The position numbers and the translations under genes are program-made. From NCBI RefSeq assembly GCF_002042965.1, contig NZ_MZNT01000012.1, positions 1 to 64,000 of the forward strand: a DNA stretch of 64,000 bases, written 5' to 3'. The notes under the pieces are model-generated. The model was given only the letters and a program-made list of their open reading frames with translations, was not told where the DNA came from and searched no databases. The stretch comes from Paenibacillus sp. 32352 (GTDB taxonomy: Bacteria; Bacillota; Bacilli; Paenibacillales; NBRC-103111). The stretch's first letter is position 1. Each line of letters starts with the position of its first letter. Shown piece after piece: positions 21,146-27,714 of this stretch.

Positions 21146-21508
21146 ATGAAAATAAGCGAACTGTCGCGATTGACCCGCGTAAGTATACGGTCGATCAGGC
21201 ATTATGACAACAAAGGCCTTCTGAACGCCGTTAGAATGGAGAATGATTATAGGGATTTCGGCGAATCTGCCGTAGAAAGAGTCAGAGCGATTCAACTATA
21301 CTTGAAGCTCGGACTAACGACCGATGAAATCGGAACTTTGTTCAAAGGCGAGACGGCGGATCCCGATGAATATGAATTTTGCGAGGAAATGCTGGCGACG
21401 TACGAACAGAAGCTCGGGAATGTGAATCATCAGATCGAAGCGCTTCATGCTCTGAAAAGATTATTGGAGAGACAAATCGATATAACGAAGAGGAAACAAA
21501 CACCGTGA
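21146..21508 (+). CDS. MerR-family transcriptional regulator
   Basis: A 120-residue regulator. Residues 1-70 are a MerR winged helix (MKISELSRLTRVSIRSIRHY, then NDYRDFGESAVERVRAIQLY). The C-terminal part is a coiled coil (EEMLATYEQKLGNVNHQIEA) without the Cys pairs of metal sensors, so it probably senses an organic compound or stress. AGGAGG lies ten bases before the ATG. The next gene, a 6PGDH-like reductase, follows within 100 bases on the same strand and is its probable target. Confidence 0.88.
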   Translation: MKISELSRLTRVSIRSIRHYDNKGLLNAVRMENDYRDFGESAVERVRAIQLYLKLGLTTDEIGTLFKGETADPDEYEFCEEMLATYEQKLGNVNHQIEALHALKRLLERQIDITKRKQTP

Positions 21509-21600
21509 AATGCTCCTGGGCTGTTTTTTTGTGTGTTGACTTTGACACTAGTGTAATCCTTTATGATGTCCTTGAGGTTATCATGAAAGGGGTTTTCACA

Positions 21601-22505
21601 TTGAACAGGAATGCAATTACCGTTGGGAAAAGCAAATCGGTGACTATCATCGGCCTGGGTCCGATGGGCCAGGCGATGGCGGGTGTTTATCTGGAGCGCG
21701 GTTATAAGGTAACCGTATGGAACCGAACCGCCAGCAAAGCGGACGAGCTTGTATTGAGGGGAGCCGTCAAAGCATCCTCCATCAAAGAAGCGCTGGACGC
21801 TAACGAGCTGGCGGTCCTCAGCCTTACGGACTACGATGTAATGTATGCAATCCTCGAACCGGCTTCGGAACAATTGTCCGGCAAGGTTCTCGTCAATCTG
21901 AGTTCGGATACTCCGCAAAAGTTCGTACGGCAGCAAAATGGTTAACCGACCGTGGGGCCAGCCTGATTACCGGGGGAGTACAGGTTCCGCCTTCCGGTAT
22001 CGGTAAGCCGGACTCTTACACGTACTACAGCGGTCCAAAAGAGGTGTTCGAGGCTCACCAGAAGGATCTTGAAGTCCTTACCGGCACTGACTATCGAGGC
22101 GAGGATCCCGGACTAGCCATGCTGTATTATCAGCTCCAGATGGATATATTCTGGACGTCCATGCTGGGCTACCTGCACGCATTTGCAGTGGCGAGTGCGA
22201 ACGGCATAACGGCGGAGCAGTTCCTGCCCTATGCTTCAGCAACGCTGTCATCATTGCCAACATTTGTTAAGTTCTACACACCGCGACTTGACGCCGGTAA
22301 GCATCCTGGCGAAGTGGACCGACTGGCTATGGGGGTTGCGAACGTCGAGCACGTCGTTCATACAACAGAGGATGCCGGCATCGATATTGCTTTGCCATCT
22401 GCGGTTCTGGATATTTTCAAACGAGGGGTAGAGATGGGTCATGCTGGGGACAGTTTTATCAGTCTCATAGAAATCTTCATGAAATCATCCGATGTCCGTT
22501 CATAA
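21601..22505 (+). pseudogene. Frameshifted 6-phosphogluconate dehydrogenase-like NAD(P) reductase
   Basis: The first frame (TTG 21601 to 21945) carries the Rossmann motif VTIIGLGPMGQAMAGVYLER and VTVWNRTASKADEL, then stops. The second frame continues as VRTAAKWLTDRGASLITGGV and reaches 22505 with a helical C-terminal domain (GLAMLYYQLQMDIFWTSMLG). The whole resembles the imine-reductase/beta-hydroxyacid dehydrogenase branch of the 6PGDH family. One extra A in the AAAA run at 21917-21920 restores a continuous frame of about 300 codons. AAAGGGG lies eight bases before the TTG. As shown the gene is inactive, or the base was lost in sequencing. Confidence 0.8.
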
Positions 22506-22790: not shown

Positions 22791-22841
22791 TTGACGAACA
22801 GAACAAAAAGGATTATATTATCCACATACCCTGACGGGTAT
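22791..22841 (+). promoter_or_regulatory. Promoter and operator O1 of the persulfide operon
   Basis: TTGACG (22791-22796), 17-bp spacer, TATATT (22814-22819), then ATACCCTGACGGGTAT (22826-22841), a perfect 6+4+6 inverted repeat at the predicted start of transcription. The arms match the CsoR/CstR-type operator pattern, and a cstR gene is encoded in the operon. Confidence 0.75.
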
Positions 22842-22937
22842 ATGTATATAAGAAGAGCGTCGATACTTTAAACAAATATATTATAGTCACCGTAAACAGA
22901 TTGTCAGTACAAGTAATTTATTTTTTTGTCTTTTTAT

Positions 22938-22953
22938 ATACCCTATAGGGTAT
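22938..22953 (+). promoter_or_regulatory. Operator O2, perfect CstR-type palindrome
   Basis: ATACCCTATAGGGTAT is a perfect 16-bp palindrome, 112 bases after O1 and 80 before the first start codon. It has the same arms as O1. A second promoter may lie here (TTGTCT upstream, TATTAA downstream with a long spacer). Confidence 0.75.
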
Positions 22954-23017
22954 TAATGAAGTGAAGAAAGGCAAGTGAAATATGGATATCGATTCTATTT
23001 TCAGGAGGAAATCAACA

Positions 23018-24166
23018 ATGACGAATCAAATTCAACTTCAAGGAATGACTGTGGCACAGCTGACGGCAAAAGTCCTGAATCATGAGCCGCTTTTTATCTT
23101 GGATGTACGAAACGAAAGTGACTTTAACGATTGGAGAATCGAAGGGAAACAGGTAAGGATCATCAACAAACCGTATTTTGATTTGATTGACGGAGTAGAA
23201 GAGGTCCTGGATCTGATCCCAGACAATCAAGAAGTGTTGGTTGTATGCGCCAAAGAAGGCTCTTCGAAATTCGTTGCAGAGCAGTTGGTCGAAGCAGGGA
23301 AGCATCATGTTTCCTATTTAATTGGCGGTATGAAATCTTGGAGCGAGCATTTGGAGCCCGTTAAGATAGGCGATCTGAAGGGCGGCGGAGAAATTGTTCA
23401 GTTTGTCCGCATCGGCAAAGGCTGCTTGTCCTATATGGTGATTTCGAACGGTGAAGCCGCTGTTATTGACGCAGTTAGGATGACCGATGTTTTTATAGAT
23501 TATGCCCAAACAAATAATGCGAAGATCAAACATACATTGGACACTCATCTTCATGCCGATCACATTTCCGGAGGAAGACAATTAGCTGAACAAACCGGTG
23601 GAACCTACTGGCTGCCGCCAAAAGATGCTGACGAAGTGAGTTTCGATTATGAAAAGCTGGAGGAAGGCAAATCCATCGTTGTAGGCAATACGCAAATCAA
23701 GATTCAACCGGTTTATTCTCCAGGTCATACCATTGGGAGCACATCTTTAATTGTGGACGATCAGTATTTGCTGTCGGGCGATATTTTATTCGTGAAATCT
23801 ATCGGCCGTCCCGATCTGGCTGGCAAGGCGGAGGACTGGGTATCGGATCTAAGAGCAACTCTGTATGAGCGTTATAAACGGCTCTCGGAAGATCTGATCG
23901 TGCTTCCAGCGCATTTCGGCAAGTTTACAGAACTAGGTGAGGGTGGCAAGGTATCAGCACGTCTTGGTGATCTATATAAGGAAAATCCGGGATTAAACAT
24001 TCAAGACGCTTCCGTATTCCGCAGTACGGTTACCGAAAATTTGCCGCCACAGCCAAATGCTTATCAAGAAATTCGCCAAACCAACATGGGGAAAATCACT
24101 CCAACCGAAGAGGAGCAAAGGGAAATGGAGATTGGTCCCAATCGCTGCGCAGTTCATGACGAATAA
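23018..24166 (+). CDS. yrkH: Rhodanese-persulfide dioxygenase fusion (MBL fold)
   Basis: A 382-residue two-domain enzyme. Residues ~10-105 are a rhodanese with active-site loop VCAKEGSSK (Cys present). Residues ~120-360 are a metallo-beta-lactamase fold of the ETHE1/persulfide dioxygenase class: [26 protein letters not shown] and LPAHFGKF supply the iron ligands. The pair would move sulfane sulfur onto glutathione- or bacillithiol-like persulfide and oxidise it to sulfite. The rhodanese is at the N-terminus, whereas CstB and most PDO-rhodanese fusions carry it after the MBL domain. I chose ATG 23018 because AGGAGG precedes it; the ATG at 22982 has none. First gene of the operon. Confidence 0.88.
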
Positions 24167-24203
24167 TCCGGGATGATCCGATTCGATCAAGGAGGTGAAG
24201 CAT

Positions 24204-24512
24204 ATGTACAAGGAGCAAATGCCGGAAGAGGTTCTTGAGAGGCAGAAGCAGAATGAGAAGCTCGTCATCCTAGATGTTCGTGAGCCTGAGGAATGGCAAT
24301 TCGGACACATTCCGGGTGCCAAGCACATCCCGCTCGGACAAATCGCAAGAGCGTTGAATGAATTAGATCCGAAGCAGGAAACCATCATCGTCTGCCGCAG
24401 CGGTAACCGAAGCGGTCAGGCCTGCGATTTCCTTTCTTCGATGGGCTTTAACGTCGTCAACATGCTAGGTGGCATGTCGAAGTGGACCGGAGATACCGTA
24501 TACGGGGCTTAA
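24204..24512 (+). CDS. Single-domain rhodanese sulfurtransferase
   Basis: A 102-residue cytosolic rhodanese. LVILDVREPEEWQFGHIPGA is the CH2A region, and the active loop is VCRSGNRSGQA with the persulfide-forming Cys. It would accept sulfane sulfur and pass it to TusA or DsrE-type carriers encoded alongside. AAGGAGG lies eight bases before ATG 24204; the GTG at 24195 sits inside that ribosome site and was not chosen. It lies 37 bases after the dioxygenase stop. Confidence 0.9.
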   Translation: MYKEQMPEEVLERQKQNEKLVILDVREPEEWQFGHIPGAKHIPLGQIARALNELDPKQETIIVCRSGNRSGQACDFLSSMGFNVVNMLGGMSKWTGDTVYGA

Positions 24513-24539
24513 GCATTTAATCAATAGGGAGGGTTTATC

Positions 24540-25112
24540 ATGTCAACATTGCAAGTAGATCGCACTATAGAATGTGAAGGACTAGCTTGTCCTCTACCCG
24601 TTGTTAGAACCAAGAAAGCCATCGATGATATGAAAGCAGGCGAAGTATTGGAAGTCCGCGCAACAGATAAAGGTTCCGTCGCAGATCTTAAGGGCTGGTC
24701 CAGCCGTACCGGGCATCAATATATTGGCTTGAAGGAAGAGAATGGGGTGTTCCGCCACTTTATTCGCAAAGCGGAAGCAGCCGAAACGAAAGCCGAGAAT
24801 AAGCACCCGCATACGGCAACGAATGAAGAGATTTACGCCAAAACGGCAGCCGGAGAAAAGTTGAATATCATCGATGTTCGGGAACCTGCAGAGTATGCGT
24901 TTGGTCGCATCCTGGGGGCGATTTCGATTCCATTGGGCCAGCTTGAAGAGCAGATGTCGTTGCTCGATCCAAATAAGGAATACTACGTAGTGTGCCGAAC
25001 CGGAAACCGAAGCGATATGGCCTGCCAGATCCTAACGGAAAAAGGTTTTTCTCATATCAAAAACGTTATTCCCGGCATGTCGGAGTGGACACATGAACTG
25101 GAGCAAGATTAA
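24540..25112 (+). CDS. yrkF: TusA-rhodanese fusion sulfurtransferase
   Basis: A 190-residue fusion, matching the length and order of B. subtilis YrkF. Residues ~8-75 are TusA/SirA with the CPxP motif (GLACPLPVVRTKKAIDDM, Cys17). Residues ~95-185 are a rhodanese with VCRTGNRSDMA (Cys152). Both Cys can carry persulfide, so one chain can take sulfur on one domain and relay it on the other. Staphylococcal CstA combines the same domains. It lies between a free rhodanese and a DsrE-like gene in the operon. Confidence 0.92.
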   Translation: MSTLQVDRTIECEGLACPLPVVRTKKAIDDMKAGEVLEVRATDKGSVADLKGWSSRTGHQYIGLKEENGVFRHFIRKAEAAETKAENKHPHTATNEEIYAKTAAGEKLNIIDVREPAEYAFGRILGAISIPLGQLEEQMSLLDPNKEYYVVCRTGNRSDMACQILTEKGFSHIKNVIPGMSEWTHELEQD

Positions 25113-25148
25113 TATAACGAGATTAAATAAAAGGAGACTGTGTATATC

Positions 25149-25547
25149 ATGACAAATAAAAAAGTAGCTCTTATTGCATCTTCCGGCGGTCTGGAGACAG
25201 CCTATAAGGTTCTGAACATAGCCACAGCAGCGGCGGCACTTGATGCCGAGGTAGCCATCTTTTTCACCTTTGAAGGGCTTTCTATCATTCACAAGCAGTC
25301 GGAGCAGCTGCTTCAACTGAAGCCCGGCAACGAAGGATTAGCGGAAGGCTTCAAGAATGCCAATGTCCCATCCATCGGTGAGCTCATGGAAATTGCAAAG
25401 GAATCCGGAGTACGTCTCATCGGGTGCCAAATGACGATCGATGTTATGGGACTGAAGCCGGAGCATTTTATTGATGGAATCGAGCTCGGCGGTGCAGCGA
25501 CATTCCTGGATTTTGCCTTTGATGCGCAAGTGAGCTTGAATTTCTAA
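25149..25547 (+). CDS. DsrE/DsrF-like sulfur carrier protein (first copy)
   Basis: A 132-residue DsrE2-type protein. It starts KKVALIASSGGLETAYKVLN (nucleotide-like alpha/beta fold) and contains the conserved GCQMTIDVMG with a candidate sulfur-carrying Cys, then FIDGIELGGAATFLDF. Proteins of this family pass sulfane sulfur between TusA and oxidising enzymes. ATG 25149 has AAGGAG 12 bases upstream; the alternative GTG at 25140 is only three bases from that site. It differs from the second copy at 25878 in lacking the ~25-residue basic insert. Confidence 0.87.
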   Translation: MTNKKVALIASSGGLETAYKVLNIATAAAALDAEVAIFFTFEGLSIIHKQSEQLLQLKPGNEGLAEGFKNANVPSIGELMEIAKESGVRLIGCQMTIDVMGLKPEHFIDGIELGGAATFLDFAFDAQVSLNF

Positions 25548-25590
25548 AAATTGAAGAGACATTAGCTGAAAACTAAGGAGAGATATCCAC

Positions 25591-25818
25591 ATGGCAAACT
25601 TGACTGTAGACGCAAAAGGACTGGCATGCCCGATGCCGATTGTAAAGGCGAAGAAGGGAATCGATACATTGGAACCCGGACAGACTATGGAGCTGCAAAC
25701 GACGGATAAAGGCTCCATGAAGGATTTCCAGGCATGGGTCAACCAAACCAATCATGAGCTGGTAGAAGCAAGAGAAGACAACGGCGTCTTTACCTTTATC
25801 GTGAAGAAGGGCTCCTGA
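25591..25818 (+). CDS. yrkI: TusA-family sulfur carrier
   Basis: A 75-residue single-domain TusA, the same size as B. subtilis YrkI. GLACPMPIVKAKKGIDTL carries the CPxP Cys that holds persulfide, followed by the standard TTDKGSMKDFQAW and the last strand FTFIVKKGS. It would shuttle sulfur between the rhodaneses and the DsrE-like proteins. It is about 47% identical by eye to the TusA domain of the fusion at 24540, which suggests a local duplication. Confidence 0.92.
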   Translation: MANLTVDAKGLACPMPIVKAKKGIDTLEPGQTMELQTTDKGSMKDFQAWVNQTNHELVEAREDNGVFTFIVKKGS

Positions 25819-25840
25819 TTAAATTTTTTTGGATTTCAAC

Positions 25841-25856
25841 ATACCCATACATGTAT
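25841..25856 (+). promoter_or_regulatory. Degenerate CstR-type operator O3
   Basis: ATACCCATACATGTAT has a perfect left arm (ATACCC) and a right arm with two changes. It lies 21 bases before the start of the second DsrE-like gene, with the same 6+4+6 spacing as O1 and O2. Confidence 0.45.
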
Positions 25857-25877
25857 AAGTAGTGAGGTGAATGATAA

Positions 25878-26354
25878 GTGAATCAAGAGAAATCGACAAT
25901 AGTTTTATTCAGTGGGGAATTGGATAAAGCGATAGCTGCGTTCATTATTGCTAATGGGGCAGCGGCTTACGATCATGAGGTAACCATTTTCTTCACCTTC
26001 TGGGGATTGAATGCGCTGCGTAAGGATGAATCGGTATTCGTGAAGAAAGGCTGGCTGGAGAGAATGTTTGCGAAAATGATGCCGCGCGGAGCGGATAAGC
26101 TTGGTCTCTCCAGGATGAACTTCGGAGGTTTTGGCCCCAAAATGATTAAGCACGTTTTGAAAAAGCACAACGCTTTGACACTGCCGCAATTAATCGAACT
26201 GGCCCAGGAGCAAAGGGTTAAATTAGTTGCCTGTACCATGACGATGGACCTGCTTGGGCTGCAAAAAGAAGAGCTTCTGGACGGTATTGAGTACGCAGGC
26301 GTTGCCGCCTACTTGGGTGACGCTGCAGACGCCAAAGTCAATTTGTTTATTTAA
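25878..26354 (+). CDS. yrkE: DsrE/DsrF/DrsH-like protein (second copy)
   Basis: A 158-residue DsrE2-family protein of YrkE length. STIVLFSGELDKAIAAFIIA opens the fold; a basic insert (VFVKKGWLERMFAKMMPRGA) typical of membrane-associating DsrE2 proteins follows; ACTMTMDLLGL carries the conserved Cys, and DGIEYAGVAAYLGDA closes it. It probably moves sulfane sulfur in the persulfide pathway. GTG start with GAGGTGA upstream; a possible CstR site O3 lies just before. Confidence 0.88.
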   Translation: MNQEKSTIVLFSGELDKAIAAFIIANGAAAYDHEVTIFFTFWGLNALRKDESVFVKKGWLERMFAKMMPRGADKLGLSRMNFGGFGPKMIKHVLKKHNALTLPQLIELAQEQRVKLVACTMTMDLLGLQKEELLDGIEYAGVAAYLGDAADAKVNLFI

Positions 26355-26398
26355 CGAAGCCTGCGTGGCATTGTTTTATGATGCTGTTTTGCAATTAT

Positions 26399-26414
26399 AT
26401 ACCTATTCCGGTAT
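26399..26414 (+). promoter_or_regulatory. CstR-type operator O4 before cstR
   Basis: ATACCTATTCCGGTAT keeps 10 of 12 arm positions of the O1/O2 consensus with identical 6+4+6 spacing, 21 bases before the cstR start. It would allow autoregulation. Confidence 0.5.
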
Positions 26415-26434
26415 TAAAGAAGGGCGGTTATTCC

Positions 26435-26695
26435 ATGCATTATGATGAGGATGTTCAAAAGAGATTAAAGCGGGTTGAAGGACAAATTCGCGGCGTACTG
26501 AAGATGATGGAAGAAGAGCAGCCATGCAAAGATGTTGTGGCCCAACTGTCAGCGGTTAGGAATGCTGCGGATAAAGCCATCGCCTACATCGTTGCCGTCA
26601 ATCTGGAGCAATGTATTATGGAAGAAAAGGAAGCCGGAAGAGATACGGGTAAAGTCGTACATCAGGCTATCGAATTGCTGGTGAAAAGCAGATAA
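26435..26695 (+). CDS. cstR: Persulfide-sensing CsoR-family repressor
   Basis: An 86-residue DUF156 (CsoR/RcnR/CstR) regulator. RLKRVEGQIRGVLKMMEEEQ is the DNA-contacting first helix. Cys31 (EQPCKD) and Cys60 (NLEQCIM) are the two thiols that cross-link on reaction with persulfide in CstR. The copper-ligand His found four residues before the second Cys in CsoR is Asn here, so a copper sensor is unlikely. It sits inside the sulfurtransferase operon that it would repress, with O4 before it. The ATG at 26435 follows AAGGGCGG; earlier in-frame starts overlap the operator. Confidence 0.9.
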   Translation: MHYDEDVQKRLKRVEGQIRGVLKMMEEEQPCKDVVAQLSAVRNAADKAIAYIVAVNLEQCIMEEKEAGRDTGKVVHQAIELLVKSR

Positions 26696-26718
26696 GCCCA
26701 AGAAAGGAGGCTACTCCA

Positions 26719-27105
26719 GTGGATGTCAATCTGATGATTCGAATTGCAGTCATCGCGCTCCTGGTTTGGTTTATTTATTCCTGGTTCGCCGGAGTCAAAG
26801 GACTTAGGAATTTAAGTACGGAGCAATTCCGGGAGGCCCTGCAAAAAAACCGCAATAATGTCCTGATCGATGTGCGGGAACCGAATGAAGTAAAGCTGGG
26901 GTATTTTCCCGGAGCGGTCAATATTCCATTATCGCAATTCAAGCTGCGGGGCGGTGAAATCCCGGCAGGGAAAAGCATTTATTTATATTGCCAAAGCGGA
27001 ATGAGGAGCAAGCAGGCGGCACGAATCCTCCAGAAAAAAGGCTTCCGTGAGCTCGCCCACCTGCAAGGCGGCATCATGGCTTGGAACGGGAAACTATCGA
27101 AGTGA
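26719..27105 (+). CDS. Membrane-anchored rhodanese
   Basis: A 128-residue protein. One N-terminal transmembrane helix (MIRIAVIALLVWFIYSWF) is followed by a complete rhodanese domain with LIDVREPNEVKLGYFPGA and the active loop YCQSGMRSKQA. The positive residues after the helix favour a cytosolic domain tethered to the membrane, which could receive sulfur from a membrane quinone-linked enzyme. GTG start with AAGGAGG eight bases upstream. It is the last gene of the operon and is followed by a strong terminator. No sqr or tauE gene accompanies it in this window. Confidence 0.9.
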   Translation: MDVNLMIRIAVIALLVWFIYSWFAGVKGLRNLSTEQFREALQKNRNNVLIDVREPNEVKLGYFPGAVNIPLSQFKLRGGEIPAGKSIYLYCQSGMRSKQAARILQKKGFRELAHLQGGIMAWNGKLSK

Positions 27106-27110
27106 AGCAA

Positions 27111-27149
27111 AAAATCATTAGCTCCAGCGTGAGAGCTAATGATTTTTTT
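27111..27149 (+). terminator. Terminator of the persulfide operon
   Basis: 14-bp stem AAAATCATTAGCTC / GAGCTAATGATTTT (27111-27124 with 27133-27146) with a T-run. Confidence 0.92.
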
Positions 27150-27325
27150 ACATGAGTATAGAATAATTGCAAATACTTATTTAGTCGCTGTAGTGTAATG
27201 TTCTACATAGCCTTCTAGTGCGGGGTTGAATTATACCTCCAAATTCCGATTTATATACTATGAATTATTATAAAACGAGAAAAGCTTGATTGTAAATAAA
27301 ATAAAGTTGAAAGGGAATACAAGAC

Positions 27326-27714
27326 ATGTTTCATTATACGATCGATACCGATCAAACAACCGCGCAAACAATAGAGAAATTGGAACAGCATCTGAAGGAA
27401 GAGAAGTTCGGTGTACTATGGCATCTGGATATGAGGAGAAGTTAAGGGAGAAAGGAGTAGAGCTTGAGCAACGCTATCACATCCTAGAGGTATGTAATCC
27501 AATCGAAGCCAAACGTGTACTTAGCGAGAATGCCATTGTAGGGTATTTTCTGCCATGCAAAATAGCCGTTTACGAGGAACAGGGAAAAACAAAAATCGGT
27601 CTGCCCAAACCAACGGCTTTAATTGGAATGGTAGATAACAGCGTACTCCAAACCATCGCGGAGGATGTAGAAAAAAGATTGATTTCTTGTATAGATCAAG
27701 CAGCATTATCTTAA
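27326..27714 (+). pseudogene. Frameshifted DUF302-domain protein
   Basis: From ATG 27326 the frame reads FHYTIDTDQTTAQTIEKLEQ and EEKFGVLWHLDMR, then stops at 27445. A second frame continues as EKLREKGVELEQRYHILEVC then NPIEAKRVL and ends at 27714. This is the order of a DUF302 protein, a family often found with sulfur-oxidising and thiol-stress genes. One more G in the GG at 27435-27436 restores a frame of about 129 codons. AAAGGGA lies ten bases before the ATG. It follows the persulfide operon but beyond its terminator. Confidence 0.8.

Follow-up and report, generated by a model that had tools for sequence, protein, structure and literature searches.

The sulfur operon and its repressor

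The window analysed here is a stretch of 64,000 nucleotides from Paenibacillus sp. 32352 (contig NZ_MZNT01000012.1, positions 1 to 64,000), and positions 22791-27149 of it read, from the sequence and from Pfam matches, as a single eight-gene sulfur operon extending from a promoter, P1, to an intrinsic terminator. The gene order assigned by Pfam is rhodanese-MBL (a fusion with a metallo-beta-lactamase), rhodanese, TusA-rhodanese, DsrE1, TusA, DsrE2, CstR and TM-rhodanese (a membrane-anchored form), of which CstR is a repressor with four candidate operators in the operon itself. Two of these operators are each preceded, at a distance conserved among relatives, by a tract of T residues, an arrangement which suggests that the repressor may obstruct RNA polymerase during elongation as well as at initiation. 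The genes and the terminator are as follows.

23018..24166, + strand: rhodanese-metallo-beta-lactamase fusion, persulfide-dioxygenase-like (PF00581 and PF00753)
24195..24512, + strand: single-domain rhodanese (PF00581)
24540..25112, + strand: TusA-rhodanese fusion (PF01206 and PF00581)
25149..25547, + strand: DsrE-like protein 1 (PF13686)
25591..25818, + strand: TusA-like sulfur carrier (PF01206)
25878..26354, + strand: DsrE2-like protein with a GTG start (PF13686)
26435..26695, + strand: CstR-type repressor of 86 amino acids with Cys31, Asn56 and Cys60 (PF02583; PDB 7mq1/7mq2)
26719..27105, + strand: membrane-anchored rhodanese (PF00581)
27115..27149, + strand: intrinsic terminator, a stem-loop (27115-27142) followed by a T run (27143-27149), recognised by its hairpin

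The open reading frame (ORF) of the first gene opens at 22982, and the better ribosome-binding site precedes the ATG at 23018. The terminator, presumed to mark the end of the operon, has a hairpin of -13.0 kcal/mol, and none of 30 shuffled sequences folded equally well. Just past it lies a DUF302 gene (27286-27714) that looks frameshifted, with its start (MFHYT...LWHLDMRRS, then a stop) in one frame and the remainder in another; a relative (L139) carries an unbroken homologue within its sulfur operon. Upstream of the operon, a dehydrogenase-like gene (21379-22505) is broken into two parts that lie in different frames (ORFs 21379-21945 and 22044-22505), possibly by a frameshift or a sequencing error.

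Copper sensors of the CsoR family carry a His ligand four residues before the second Cys. In the window's repressor this position is taken by Asn56, and Cys31, Cys60 and Asn56 are each present in 62 of the 62 CstR copies compared (61 loci), which bears out the preliminary description of this stretch, according to which a CsoR-family protein with these two Cys and without the copper His is encoded here. The protein scores 79.5 bits against PF02583 (cut-off, 22.8) and so has the CsoR/DUF156 fold; the closest PDB chains are 7mq1 and 7mq2 (E 4.9e-13), and 7MQ2 is called CstR in PMC9774590. The neighbours of the cstR genes are rhodanese, TusA, DsrE and persulfide-dioxygenase-like genes, as expected for a CstR. 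From the residues and this gene context, the repressor is likely to be released by persulfide rather than by copper.

The genome contains three PF02583 proteins: the window's CstR, a second CstR on contig C14 (G000:C14:50031-50288; L044/L328) that is 81% identical to it, and a more distant protein on contig C10 (35% identical). The second cstR gene has a cstR-type promoter-operator in front and a TM-rhodanese gene behind it. The earlier proposal that one regulator controls the operon is thus too simple, although its placing of a CstR-type repressor inside its own target operon, with control at the front, is supported.

Start-site operators and operators behind a T tract

The control elements, all on the + strand, are distributed over the front of the operon and two internal gaps.

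22791..22819, + strand: promoter P1, TTGACG (22791-22796), a 17-bp spacer and TATATT (22814-22819) (sequence; relatives)
22826..22841, + strand: operator op1, with perfect arms, starting 7 bp after the -10 element; class A (start-site) (sequence; relatives)
22921..22927, + strand: T7 tract with exactly 10 bp between its last T and op2 (sequence; relatives)
22938..22953, + strand: operator op2, with perfect arms, in the presumed transcribed leader; class C, proposed roadblock (sequence; model R1)
25824..25830, + strand: T7 tract, 5 nt past the tusA stop codon; exactly 10 bp separate its last T from the dsrE2 operator (sequence)
25841..25861, + strand: dsrE2 operator, ATACCCATACATGTAT; class C, proposed roadblock (relatives; model R1)
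26371..26398, + strand: cstR promoter, TTGTTT (26371-26376), a 16-bp spacer and AATTAT (26393-26398) (relatives; model R2)
26399..26414, + strand: cstR operator, ATACCTATTCCGGTAT, abutting the -10 element; start-site type (relatives; model R2)

All four sites were found where the preliminary description had put them: ATACCC-N4-GGGTAT occurs with perfect arms at 22826 and 22938, and with two mismatches each at 25841 and 26399. Mismatch counting alone lends the two degenerate sites no support, because the counts are at the chance level in the window (20 matches with up to 3 mismatches, against 19.6 expected from shuffles) and near it genome-wide (264 forward-strand matches with up to 2 mismatches, against 222 for the reversed pattern), and it was rejected as evidence for them. 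Conservation in relatives, by contrast, supports both. In loci picked by hand from CstR matches, with sites selected by operator similarity (ATACCY-N4-RGGTAT, up to 1 mismatch), a site lies within 120 bp upstream of 43 of 62 cstR genes from 61 loci (the window and the genome's own second copy included; 19 are without one) and of 17 of 41 dsrE2 genes; 40 permuted palindromes gave a mean of 0.3 and a maximum of 9 before cstR, and a mean of 0.1 and a maximum of 5 before dsrE2.

Two models, R1 for T-tract operators and R2 for the cstR promoter-operator, were trained without the window's genome. In a scan of that genome, R1 placed op2 (22938) first (E 4e-6) and 25821-25861 third (E 4.6e-4). R2 placed 26370-26415 second, yet with a weak E of 0.02 and an equal third place (0.022), whereas the second cstR copy on C14 reached 1e-11; in the window alone the site has an E of 1.6e-4. 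The dsrE2 operator also contains an exact TAC-N3-TAC-N2-GTA-N3-GTA (25842-25861), which occurs 43 times in 1.10 Mb of loci, against about 0.07 expected at random, and is present in 18 of 26 dsrE2 rows (a few overlapping duplicates included).

The four sites had been described as operators of one geometry; they fall instead into two classes. ATACCC/GGGTAT arms are found at 65 of 90 front sites and at none of 49 cstR sites, a contrast that is partly built in since the front set was admitted with up to 1 mismatch to the ATACCC consensus and the cstR set with up to 2 to a looser one; about half of the 49 cstR sites are palindromes of the form ATACCT/AGGTAT. Promoter elements separate the classes as well. 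At op1 and at the cstR site, -35 and -10 elements of the sigma-A type, 16-17 bp apart, precede the operator. In many relatives a P1-type promoter stands at the same distance from op1, and the class A consensus (front op1, n = 39) is TTGACG, 17 bp, TATAGT, 6 bp and the operator, followed nearly always by NN-GTA; the hexamers are conserved by construction, since the set was picked by a promoter pattern, which does not apply to the common register or to the GTA. In the cstR rows, ATAAT lies directly 5′ of the operator in 46 of 49 and the -35 position reads TTG in 37, from which the window's promoter deviates twice (ATTAT, and a spacer shorter by one). The proposed autoregulation of cstR through a conserved internal promoter is supported.

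Class C, selected for a run of at least six Ts at a gap of 10 (n = 46), contains the op2 sites of operon fronts and the majority of the dsrE2 sites. After the tract comes G in 38 of 46 and then C in 29 of 46, followed by mixed sequence that becomes AT-rich from -6 up to the operator, and the sole feature 3′ of the operator is a weak ATG/GTA continuation. Neither a -35 nor a -10 element is conserved in these 46 sites (less than 0.3 bit everywhere from -60 to -20), and an own TTGAC-type promoter was seen at only 1 of 39 op2 sites. The suggestion that the regulator tunes internal promoters is supported at the cstR site, which lies behind a promoter, and not supported at the dsrE2 site, which has no conserved one; at op2 and the dsrE2 site the conserved feature is a T7 tract ending 10 bp upstream.

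These profiles bear on the view that each of the four sites is a conventional operator at a promoter, with op2 and the dsrE2 site covering weak secondary promoters at which CstR would repress initiation. The right-arm TAT and the A-rich sequence after it could act as a weak -10 element, and in Bacillus licheniformis the CstR-like YrkD binds upstream of yrkE in vitro about as tightly as it binds its own promoter region (Kd of 2.3 and 2.4 uM), the region upstream of yrkE being promoter-active in Escherichia coli (PMC9918477). On the other hand, G follows the tract in most class C sites, so that the TTG of a -35 element is not invariant, and the native start site of yrkE could not be found (PMC9918477). 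With no conserved promoter elements at class C sites, this view appears unlikely.

A scan of the 7.93-Mb genome for ATACCC-N4-GGGTAT, which the preliminary description had called for, returned six perfect sites. Two are op1 and op2, and a third, on contig C22, lies upstream of a TM-rhodanese gene, where the layout P1-op1-T7-N10-op2 appears again with an op1 spacer of 5 bp. The remaining three (contigs C11, C17 and C46) have no T tract or evident promoter within the 60 bp on either side inspected by eye, and one of them lies inside an ORF; they were judged to be chance matches.

A T tract at a fixed distance from the operator

Among 183 operators with up to 1 mismatch in the 61 loci, 57 have a run of six or more Ts within 45 bp upstream, as compared with 2.4% of random positions, and the gap between run and operator is 10 bp in 46 of these and 9-11 bp in 55. 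In the 34 bp searched downstream of the same operators there are 1 T run and 4 A runs. A second operator lies within 450 bp of 39 of 47 op1 sites that adjoin a promoter, so that in these 39 cases op2 is expected to be in transcribed DNA downstream of the promoter. At 36 of the 39 op2 sites in such pairs, the window's included, a run of five or more Ts stands at a gap of 10, as against none of the 39 op1 sites, a contrast that is not relied on because op1 was picked by its adjoining -10 element, which fills most of the place of the tract. At the dsrE2 sites the tract lies at a gap of 9-11 in 19 of 22 distinct operators (24 rows). The idea that ribosomes shield the tract by way of a fixed distance from the preceding stop codon was rejected for the dsrE2 sites, where this distance varies from 0 to 202 nt. 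Two relatives (L064 and L073) carry a thioredoxin gene in the interval from op1 to the T-tract operator, and eroded remnants are present in two others (L074 and L098); the window's short leader may be what remained after the loss of such a gene.

The spacing recurs in wider samples. In 103 genomes of the family, a search made independently of CstR, for T6, a gap of 0-30 and an operator, returned 78 operators in 47 genomes, with a gap of 10 in 57 of them (39 genomes), and the reversed pattern gave 7 matches. Five of these 57 matches are one near-identical string (TTTTTTGACGCTAATA-ATACCCCGGAAGGTAT; L152, L153 and similar) from five genomes of the family, and no sulfur or copper gene adjoins it in the two loci examined. 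In 398 Bacilli genomes the gap is 10 at 35 of 106 operators among the matches listed, the next most frequent gap being 12 (10 operators), and about 20 matches were obtained with the reversed pattern. A scan with the gap fixed at 10 found at least 119 stretches; the 80 loci listed hold 84 sites and include Paenibacillus, Cohnella, Bacillus, Niallia, Neobacillus, Gottfriedia, Pseudalkalibacillus and Brevibacillus, with a few unrelated records. Judged by eye from the translations, many of the listed sites precede TusA-rhodanese, DsrE2, CstR, TauE-like or CoA-disulfide-reductase-like genes, and among the 84 sites a TTGA[CT]-type promoter and an operator are each found within 450 bp upstream in 52. 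With the exact gap, a phylum-wide scan matched 3 of 398 genomes in a sample mostly outside Bacilli, a composition that makes the low count uninformative.

A bendable or intrinsically curved element, aiding the binding of a CstR tetramer or looping between op1 and op2, would also be compatible with a spacing of about one helical turn and with two operators that usually lie near each other. However, a binding aid for a palindromic operator would be expected on either side, and the mirrored A runs downstream number only 4 in 34 bp (offsets 6, 7, 11 and 25) against the 57 T runs in 45 bp upstream. The distance between op1 and op2 varies from 34 to 403 bp across the 39 pairs without a fixed value and was rejected as a looping signal, and the tract is kept at dsrE2 sites that have no partner operator nearby. 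A role in bending or looping is therefore improbable.

A similar module occurs in copper operons. R1 also matched the gap between copZ and copA of the same genome (contig C9, E 7.6e-4), where T8 and 9 bp precede ATACCC-N5-GGGTAT; in this locus (L327, G000:C9, 5141-5520, minus strand) one operator lies in the copZ promoter and a second behind the T8 tract, CsoR being the presumed repressor. The N5 module has matches in 35 of the 103 family genomes, and its reversed pattern has none there. In 31 loci examined, 29 of 31 T-tract sites with a gap of 8-11 are followed by an ORF that carries motifs of metal P-type ATPases, and the last T is about 18 bp from the centre of the palindrome in the sulfur and copper systems alike. 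The gene context suggests that CsoR binds these copA-side sites. Only 5 of 161 Bacilli genomes, this one included, match the N5 module, and the copA form therefore seems to belong mainly to this family.

RNA structure before the tracts distinguishes the two systems. The 50 nt upstream of the tract have a z score below -2 at 15 of 31 copA sites, with hairpins that either abut the tract or stand some 14 nt upstream of it, and the copper case is less clean because about half of its sites carry such a hairpin. The sulfur tracts show no excess of upstream structure (mean z -0.13, n = 55; control -0.01, n = 62); 4 of the 55 sites have z below -2, and at 7 of 55 the hairpin adjoining the tract surpasses 95% of shuffles. 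Pronounced upstream structure was seen in a minority of the sulfur loci (z below -3 in L052, L080 and L084; just below -2 in L053). Neither tract of the window has an adjoining hairpin (z -0.03 and -0.30), and a terminator hairpin before the sulfur tracts was rejected as a general feature, being missing at most sites. The copA hairpins and the few at sulfur sites are what would be expected if a classical attenuator or intrinsic terminator used the tract as its U tract and adjoined the operator incidentally. Given the sites without a hairpin and the fixed gap between tract and operator, this explanation is very improbable.

A possible double lock and its relation to known systems

The best reading, and a fairly probable one as judged from the sequences, is a CstR-controlled operon for persulfide detoxification in which op1 blocks initiation, and op2 and the dsrE2 site act as roadblocks, bringing polymerase to a halt on a weak rU:dA hybrid. 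Action on elongating polymerase is suggested because the element is direction-dependent, stands at a fixed distance from a repressor site and lies in DNA that should be transcribed. Reduced CstR at op1 would cover the start region of P1 and stop initiation, and CstR on the leader operator op2 and on the internal dsrE2 operator would block polymerase that is already elongating. From the known dimensions of the polymerase, its front should meet the repressor when the last U of the tract is at the RNA 3′ end; with the repressor 10 bp ahead, a T7-8 tract would then place an all-rU:dA hybrid in the halted enzyme, with G as the next base. Pausing is favoured at the U-G step that follows the tract. 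Through the weak hybrid and this step, the complex would backtrack or fall off rather than wait, and the result would be a repressor-dependent terminator that has no hairpin at most sulfur sites. The cstR gene would escape the roadblocks because its own promoter lies downstream of them, and the operator abutting its -10 element, with arms off consensus, would provide negative autoregulation. Persulfide or polysulfide joining Cys31 and Cys60′ would make CstR leave, so that all of the locks open together.

It is also tempting to speculate that T7-8, 9-10 bp and a CsoR-family operator form a standard part in Bacilli, namely a ligand-controlled, hairpin-optional terminator resembling that of eukaryotic RNA polymerase I (Pol I), with the repressor keeping polymerase on a U-rich hybrid, for both the persulfide (CstR) and the copper (CsoR, before copA) regulons, a generalisation that is tentative and slightly less likely than not.

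In a variant that is compatible with roadblocking, a NusG pause at a TTNTTT-type T tract would set the halt, and CstR would convert the pause into termination; RNA 3′ ends would then lie about 5-6 bp before the operator and not in the tract. In Bacillus subtilis, NusG pauses need T at -12, -11, -8, -7 and -6 relative to the 3′ end (PMC8060035), a pattern contained in a run of T7-8, whereas a 3′ end so near the operator should make polymerase and repressor overlap. The variant is possible, if somewhat doubtful.

Several observations weigh against roadblocking at the T-tract operators. No second operator lies within 450 bp of 8 of the 47 promoter-op1 sites, and of the three op2 sites that lack a T run of five or more at a gap of 10, one is a cstR operator, one has its own promoter and one has only T4. 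The rule is also broken by 3 of the 22 dsrE2 sites, 24 of the 41 dsrE2 genes have no site at up to 1 mismatch, and the site counts overstate the number of events because relatives share ancestry. The promoter activity upstream of yrkE, noted above, points the same way, as do studies of Pol I, in which release in vitro depended on an RNA hairpin in addition to the roadblock and the T tract, and was only slow with unrelated roadblocks, Lac repressor among them (PMC12366685); the need for a hairpin counts here because most sulfur sites have none.

If the double lock is real, these operons are locked at initiation and then again during elongation, and the reading of "second operators" in CstR and copper operons would change. 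Repressor roadblocks in bacteria are known, and upstream sequence is named in PMC4132739 as an untested factor in roadblocking. In many genomes a T tract is retained at a single precise distance upstream of operators that themselves lie downstream of a promoter. The arrangement would offer a test system in relatives of B. subtilis and a way to find regulated terminators in genomes. A literature search of partial coverage returned nothing that connects CstR or CsoR to roadblocking, and nothing that connects repressor roadblocks in bacteria to a T tract. The preliminary interpretation as a whole is partly supported.

One of the closest relatives of the repressor system is the cst operon of Staphylococcus aureus, which shares a CsoR-family repressor with Cys31 and Cys60, sulfur-detoxification targets and two operators (OP1/OP2) at the front (PMC9426444; PMC5480029). 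The window differs in having four operators, with one before cstR and one before dsrE2; two of its operators have T tracts. While S. aureus CstR is thought to control directly a single operon (PMC5480029), the present genome has a second CstR and a further likely target elsewhere. In the yrkD cluster of B. licheniformis, a CstR-like repressor likewise acts before its own gene and before yrkE, which encodes a DsrE-like protein, and it is released by elemental sulfur; yrkD is the first gene there, whereas the window's cstR is the seventh of eight and has its own promoter (PMC9918477). The yrkE site is read as a promoter in that work and its counterpart here, likened to it by description, looks like a roadblock. 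The native yrkE start site that could not be found fits a roadblock, and it also fits a weak promoter, the authors themselves ascribing it to weak transcription, a point that also tells against the roadblock (PMC9918477). As for the operator, the dsrE2 site resembles that of Thermus TTHA1953 (TACNNTACNNNNGTANNGTA), to which a CstR-like protein binds and in which TAC/GTA triplets likewise make up a 20-bp palindrome (PMC10318464); its triplet spacing differs from the TAC-N3-TAC-N2-GTA-N3-GTA of the dsrE2 site.

As roadblocks, CcpA, CodY and LacI are comparable in that a DNA-bound repressor past the promoter stops elongating polymerase and Mfd ends the roadblock (PMC4132739; PMC10310618), the roadblocks weakening without Mfd (PMC4132739). 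The portions of these reports that were available describe no fixed T tract, which the window has. The Pol I terminator (Reb1/Nsi1/TTF1) shares with the window's sites a T-rich stretch of the non-template strand shortly before a protein site, and a weak hybrid in the halted polymerase; with Reb1, Pol I comes to a halt in a T-rich stretch that lies 15 bp before the site (PMC12366685). It is eukaryotic, is not ligand-controlled and has an RNA hairpin (PMC12366685), whereas the roadblock proposed here would be a ligand-sensing repressor, with no hairpin at the majority of the sulfur sites and one at about half of the copA sites. The T-tract operators of the window and its relatives may represent a possible bacterial parallel to Pol I termination.

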